Positions 2,795 through 27,468 of a stretch of 64,000 nt of DNA are shown piece after piece (position 1 is the stretch's first letter; every line of letters starts with the position of its first letter). The DNA is from Candidatus Nitrosocosmicus franklandus (GTDB lineage: Archaea; Thermoproteota; Nitrososphaeria; Nitrososphaerales; Nitrososphaeraceae). The stretch lies in contig NZ_LR216287.1 of NCBI RefSeq assembly GCF_900696045.1, forward strand, positions 806,001-870,000, in the 5' to 3' direction. The position numbers were made by a program, and so were the translations under genes. The notes under the pieces were generated by a model. The model was not told where the DNA came from and did not search any database. It saw nothing but the letters and a program-made list of their open reading frames with translations.

Positions 2795-2923
2795 TGCGGT
2801 CACCGGGATTTGAACTCCCGCTCTGTCTATATAAATAGAGACAAAGTCCCGGGTTACGGGCTTTCTCCATATAGATCTTATATATGGAAGGCCAGTGTCC
2901 TAACCAAACTAGACGATGACCGC
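2795..2923 (-). tRNA. tRNA-Gly(TCC) with two introns (anticodon loop and T loop)
   Basis: On the minus strand the acceptor arm GCGGTCA (from 2923) pairs with TGACCGC before A73 at 2795. Exons are 2923-2885, 2862-2848 and 2814-2795, giving a 74-nt mature tRNA with anticodon loop CTTCCAA (anticodon TCC). Intron 1 (2884-2863, 22 nt) is at the canonical 37/38 site. It folds as a bulge-helix-bulge: helix CTTC/GGAG, bulges CAT and AAA, inner stem ATATA/TATAT. Intron 2 (2847-2815, 33 nt) splits the T arm between CCGGG and TTCAAAT. It folds as a perfect bulge-helix-bulge: helix CCCG/CGGG, bulges GGA and AGT, inner stem CTTTGTC/GACAGAG. Cutting after the second base of each bulge restores a normal T arm CCGGG-TTCAAAT-CCCGG. 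One anticodon-stem mismatch (T28-C42) remains. Ignoring intron 2 leaves no foldable T arm. Confidence 0.88.
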
Positions 2924-27368: not shown

Positions 27369-27468
27369 GCCCGGGTAGTATAGAAATGCACCTTGGTGCA
27401 TTGTAAAGTCCGGTCCAGTATGGGGGACTGTCACTCCCTTGACCCGGGTTCGAATCCCGGCCCGGGCG
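27369..27468 (+). tRNA. tRNA-Asp(GTC) with a D-loop intron
   Basis: Acceptor arm GCCCGGG (27369-27375) pairs with CCCGGGC before G73 (27468). The anticodon arm GGGGA-CTGTCAC-TCCCT gives anticodon GTC. The T arm is CCGGG-TTCGAAT-CCCGG. The D arm is split by an extra ~25 nt (27384-27408) after GTATAG. This insert has a perfect 8-bp hairpin AATGCACC/GGTGCATT, and the borders can form a relaxed bulge-helix-bulge (GTAT/GTAA, three of four pairs; bulges AGA and AGT). Removing it gives a normal 75-nt tRNA-Asp. The exact cut sites could shift by a base or two. Confidence 0.92.

Follow-up and report, generated by a model that had tools for sequence, protein, structure and literature searches.

A tRNA-Gly(UCC) gene with two predicted protein-spliced introns in Candidatus Nitrosocosmicus franklandus and its family

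Position 53/54, in the T arm, is among the listed non-canonical intron sites of archaeal tRNA genes (PMC4090602). For Thaumarchaeota, 107 non-canonical introns were counted with tRNAscan-SE 2.0, for which a separate bulge-helix-bulge (BHB) model was trained (PMC8450103). T-arm introns have been reported in Caldiarchaeum subterraneum (PMC3293823), and in some Asgard genomes it is common to find multiple non-canonical introns (PMC11291895). Our literature search on BHB and Nitrososphaera found no paper.

Here, we describe a locus in a window of 64,000 nt from Candidatus Nitrosocosmicus franklandus (contig NZ_LR216287.1, positions 806,001 to 870,000). It is almost certainly a functional tRNA-Gly(UCC) gene, present in one copy, whose two archaeal introns, at 37/38 and at 53/54, are spliced by proteins. 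The first-pass annotation of this DNA had presented a T-loop intron in a thaumarchaeon as a rarity. That part of it falls, as the 53/54 site is published (PMC4090602), the thaumarchaeal introns already have their count and model (PMC8450103), and many archaeal phyla as well as most members of the family carry 53/54 introns. We therefore consider the case sound and not surprising, with low novelty, since such introns are already known in many archaea. What the locus contributes to the study of archaeal tRNA intron evolution is a well-documented example in a family of ammonia oxidisers: close relatives offer naturally empty sites for either intron, so that gain and loss can be dated.

Gene layout, copy number, and detection

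The whole precursor, which includes A73 and does not encode CCA, occupies window positions 2795..2923 on the minus strand (129 nt), as do all of its parts. Exon 1 (tRNA positions 1-37; 2885..2923), GCGGTCATCGTCTAGTTTGGTTAGGACACTGGCCTTCCA, carries the anticodon TCC and has the 3' end CTTCCA. Intron 1 follows at the canonical site 37/38 (2863..2884; 22 nt), with the core CTTC(32-35)/GGAG and the inner stem ATATA/TATAT. Exon 2 (positions 38-53, without residue 47; 2848..2862), AGCCCGTAACCCGGG, is separated from exon 3 (positions 54-73; 2795..2814), TTCAAATCCCGGTGACCGCA, by intron 2 at site 53/54 (2815..2847; 33 nt). The core of intron 2, CCCG(48-51)/CGGG, and its bulges, GG^A and AG^T, are as the first-pass annotation had them, while the inner stem, CTTTGTCT/AGACAGAG, has 8 bp instead of the 7 given there. 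The predicted spliced tRNA is 74 nt long before CCA addition.

An open reading frame at 2163-2741 on the plus strand stops about 54 bases short of the gene's 3' end; it is a probable transposase remnant with a weak match to DDE_Tnp_IS240 (2.8e-05, below Pfam's cut-off). A UbiD-family gene lies within about 1-4 kb of tRNA-Gly(TCC) in many family members and about 40 kb away in the genus of the window.

Although a common glycine codon depends on this one tRNA, its gene escapes ARAGORN and, at the standard cut-off, Rfam, in line with the earlier expectation that the gene is easily missed. ARAGORN called zero tRNAs over the window, and the single tRNA match of Rfam in the window at the standard cut-off was another tRNA; the precursor scored 26.2 bits against RF00005, for which the cut-off is 29. 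When both inserts were removed in silico, ARAGORN called a clean tRNA-Gly(tcc). Removing the 53/54 insert alone produced a misnamed tRNA-Ser, so that half-splicing gives tRNA-Gly(UCC) a wrong name, and removing the 37/38 insert alone produced no ARAGORN call. The call on the fully spliced sequence, together with the intronless genes of relatives described below, bears out the claim that excision restores a canonical T arm.

The identity of the gene as Gly(TCC) was also upheld. The first-pass annotation had named a second complete tRNA-Gly(TCC) gene as the finding that would make this one a pseudogene; we looked for such a gene among the tRNA loci that searches located in the genome, which is 99% complete, and found none. 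Separate Gly(GCC) and Gly(CCC) genes are present, and GGA is the top glycine codon in eight long genes of the window (100/257). Judged by its sequence, tRNA-Gly(UCC) alone is dedicated to reading GGA in this genome.

Other tRNA genes of this genome also appear to be interrupted. A tRNA-Asp(GTC) gene in the window (27369-27468, plus strand) has a D-arm insert of about 25 nt, in which ATGCACC/GGTGCAT forms a hairpin; Rfam matches the gene in its 3' part only (32 bits), and the splice sites are approximate. Apparent D-arm inserts are found elsewhere in the genome in Gln(TTG), Arg(CCT), Glu(CTC), and Glu(TTC) genes (L098, L099, L101, and L102) and in long Leu/Ser-type genes (L104-L107), and a further locus (L103) possibly represents a Gln(CTG) gene interrupted three times.

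The 53/54 motif and its comparative support

We searched 70 genomes of the family with BLAST using this gene, which had a homologue in nearly all of them, and read the loci to obtain 63 complete tRNA-Gly(TCC) genes. The 53/54 insert is present in 52 of the 63, in 46 distinct sequences of 19-33 nt, and 51 genes carry both inserts at the same positions, with introns that vary in length and sequence. The 4-bp core CCCG/CGGG and the two 3-nt bulges, GG^A and A-N^T, are found in every one of the 52; the first intron base is always A and the last two are always A-N. The exons are nearly invariant over the 63 genes: exon 1 is unchanged in 38 of the 58 relatives that were parsed first and near-identical in the remainder, and exon 2 has only three variants family-wide. 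The inner stem of the 53/54 intron covaries, with its first five pairs paired in 218 of 230 cells. When the 3' halves were re-dealt in 2,000 shuffles, the mean was 184.9 paired cells (sd 3.6, maximum 198); as the shuffle ignores kinship and related sequences inflate the figure, it is to be read as support and not as a probability.

Natural empty sites exist for both introns. The 53/54 insert is precisely absent in 11 of the 63 genes, all of genus g6, where the junction CCGGG|TTCAAATCCCGG reads CCGGGTTCAAATCCCGG. One further gene (L089, genome G029) lacks the 37/38 intron just as precisely and retains the one at 53/54; its junction CTTCCA|AGCCCG reads CTTCCAAGCCCG. Both natural junctions are those predicted from the bulges, and the two intron positions originally proposed hold up against them. 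Based on these comparisons among sequences, the second intron is confirmed as real.

The motif at 53/54 falls short of the textbook example that the first-pass annotation had called it. A full hBHBh' motif with an outer helix and a stable fold was not found at this site: the would-be outer helix consists of A46-U55, an A45.C56 mismatch, and U44-A57, and forcing the core helix places this species' precursor 5.4 kcal/mol above its minimum-energy fold (median over the 52 family genes, 4.3 kcal/mol), in an energy model that is simple and ignores tRNA tertiary contacts and protein. The core helix is not part of the minimum-energy fold because CCCG/CGGG has several pairing options. The class admits relaxed BHB forms (PMC4090602), so the 53/54 intron stays in it despite the weak outer helix. 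In three relatives (L080, L087, and L094, from genomes G028, G042, and G025), C44, G45, and G57 provide a 3-bp outer helix; there the cost of forcing the core drops to 0-1.5 kcal/mol, and the predicted fold favours the motif or nearly does so. This fold model suggests that exon bases possibly changed together with the intron in these three genes.

The same minimum-energy fold pairs CGGG of the intron with CCCG of the 3' exon, which creates a look-alike T arm, CGGG-AGTTCAAAT-CCCG. This would suit a tRNA in which the insert is retained as an extra arm and the enlarged T arm functions without splicing. We give that idea very little credence, as close relatives lack the insert with their exons unchanged, and as the insert is free in length and sequence while the bases at the cleavage sites (GG^A, A-N^T) are fixed.

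Another alternative to a spliced gene is a pseudogene, decayed or disrupted, in which the 33-nt insert arrived by chance and is never removed. Standard searches do miss the gene, and a loose motif does arise by chance: our core-plus-stem scan returned 90 matches for the window, as against 52-78 for three shuffled versions. A motif so common in shuffled sequence does not rule out chance by itself, which is done instead by the comparative evidence. One relative (L077, in draft genome G016) has a degenerate two-intron Gly(TCC) copy with several small deletions, reflecting either draft assembly errors or a pseudogene. Against this stand the near-invariant exons beside variable introns over 63 genes, the maintained inner-stem pairing, and the precise empty sites. 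Furthermore, this nearly complete genome yielded no other Gly(TCC) gene, and GGA is the commonest glycine codon in the eight window genes counted, which makes a pseudogene very unlikely.

Other intron types were considered as well. A group I self-splicing intron was ruled out, because 33 nt is too short and the Rfam scan of the window returned only its one tRNA match. Neither a C nor a D box motif was found inside the introns when they were inspected for C/D box RNAs.

The first-pass annotation had pointed to the type of splicing endonuclease as a check; the genome proved to encode a heteromeric set. The catalytic alpha subunit (locus L113) has 2cv8 as its best PDB match (1.3e-45), aligns to it nearly gap-free over its N-terminal part, and has Y, H, and K present. 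A second subunit of the same family (L114) lacks the catalytic histidine, and an RtcB ligase is also encoded (E=1.6e-169). We infer that L113 and L114 assemble as a heterotetramer, a pair that would fit the alpha2-beta2 endonuclease reported for Thaumarchaeota, an enzyme group linked to expanded motifs (PMC4090602). In the mechanism that we propose, the pre-tRNA would be cut at the BHB at 37/38 and at the relaxed BHB at 53/54 by this heteromeric endonuclease, made up of the catalytic alpha and a structural subunit, and the exons would be joined, most likely by RtcB, into a 74-nt tRNA reading GGA. We infer from sequence the cutting of both sites in the cell, the role of this enzyme, and the order in which the sites are cut.

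History of the 53/54 intron in the family

Outside the family, tRNA-Gly(TCC) genes are intronless in Nitrosopumilus-type genera and in two further families; they are laid out like the predicted spliced product and are 89-95% identical to it. To place the intron-lacking genomes, of which ten were sampled, we built a FastTree phylogeny from UbiD-family and aspartokinase proteins, in which deeper nodes are weakly supported. Nine of the ten fall into a single clade within genus g6 (support 0.89), and the tenth, G041, has a long branch of its own away from them. As the relatives outside the family are intronless, the simplest history is that the 53/54 intron arose on the family stem and was lost afterwards; we consider it most likely that it was gained there and then cleanly lost at least once, in one or two events.

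An intron older than the family, or gained several times within it, would change only this history and would be equally compatible with splicing. Introns of the same consensus at 53/54 in Gly tRNAs of Bathyarchaeota, Asgard archaea, and other Nitrososphaeria speak for such a course, as does the intron transposition between tRNAs described in Thermoproteales (PMC4033280). The intronless Gly(TCC) genes read in families f10, f11, and f13 speak against it, as does the two-protein tree, where all sampled members carry the intron except the one g6 clade (0.89) and G041. We hold these alternatives to be possible but rather doubtful.

Selection instead of drift may have kept the intron, for example by breaking the T-arm half of the gene, which integrating elements use as a target, an idea that has been raised for disrupted tRNA genes generally (cited in PMC4390854). 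We regard this as improbable here. If it were true, the intronless Nitrososphaera subclade should have more integrations at the locus.

The homologues also share a U28.C42 mismatch in the anticodon stem (window 2848-2923; homologues L236-L265 and L281), which is kept family-wide and in the intronless genes of other families. It persists in L281, where pair 31-39 has changed, and one relative (L271) has a paired anticodon stem. That the introns impose the mismatch was rejected, as it also occurs in intronless genes.

Comparison with 53/54 introns of other archaea

We scanned public genomes with the consensus CCGGGA...CGGGA-N-TTC. Asgard archaea, Bathyarchaeota, Thermoproteales, Nitrososphaeria, Aenigmatarchaeota, Woesearchaeota, and Nanoarchaeota were among the matches listed. 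These were mostly Gly tRNAs, with Asp, Arg, Pro, Val, and others also among the matches listed, according to ARAGORN anticodon calls, which cannot be relied on where other introns are still in place. One of the matches, from a bacterial record, is no tRNA. As CCCGGG is self-complementary, any BHB at this site must repeat CGGG, so the shared consensus alone is no proof of common descent.

The 53/54 introns of Thermoproteales (e.g. Pyrobaculum sp. WP30, L153) have the same arrangement at the same site as here, CCGGG^A ... CGGGA-N^TTC, but are much shorter in most of the matches read, at about 15-18 nt. The introns of Caldiarchaeum subterraneum (PMC3293823) resemble the present ones in their T-arm placement, compared at the level of the arm, and in the presence of several introns per tRNA, whereas they come from another archaeal group and from different tRNAs. 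The thaumarchaeal introns of the tRNAscan-SE 2.0 study (PMC8450103) share the host phylum. The closest likeness in form is to the reviewed 53/54 introns (PMC4090602), which have the same position, 4-bp core, and 3-nt bulges, are likewise short, and may accompany a 37/38 intron. The rich sources in that review are Crenarchaeota and Nanoarchaeota, whereas here the intron occurs family-wide in one tRNA of an ammonia-oxidiser family.
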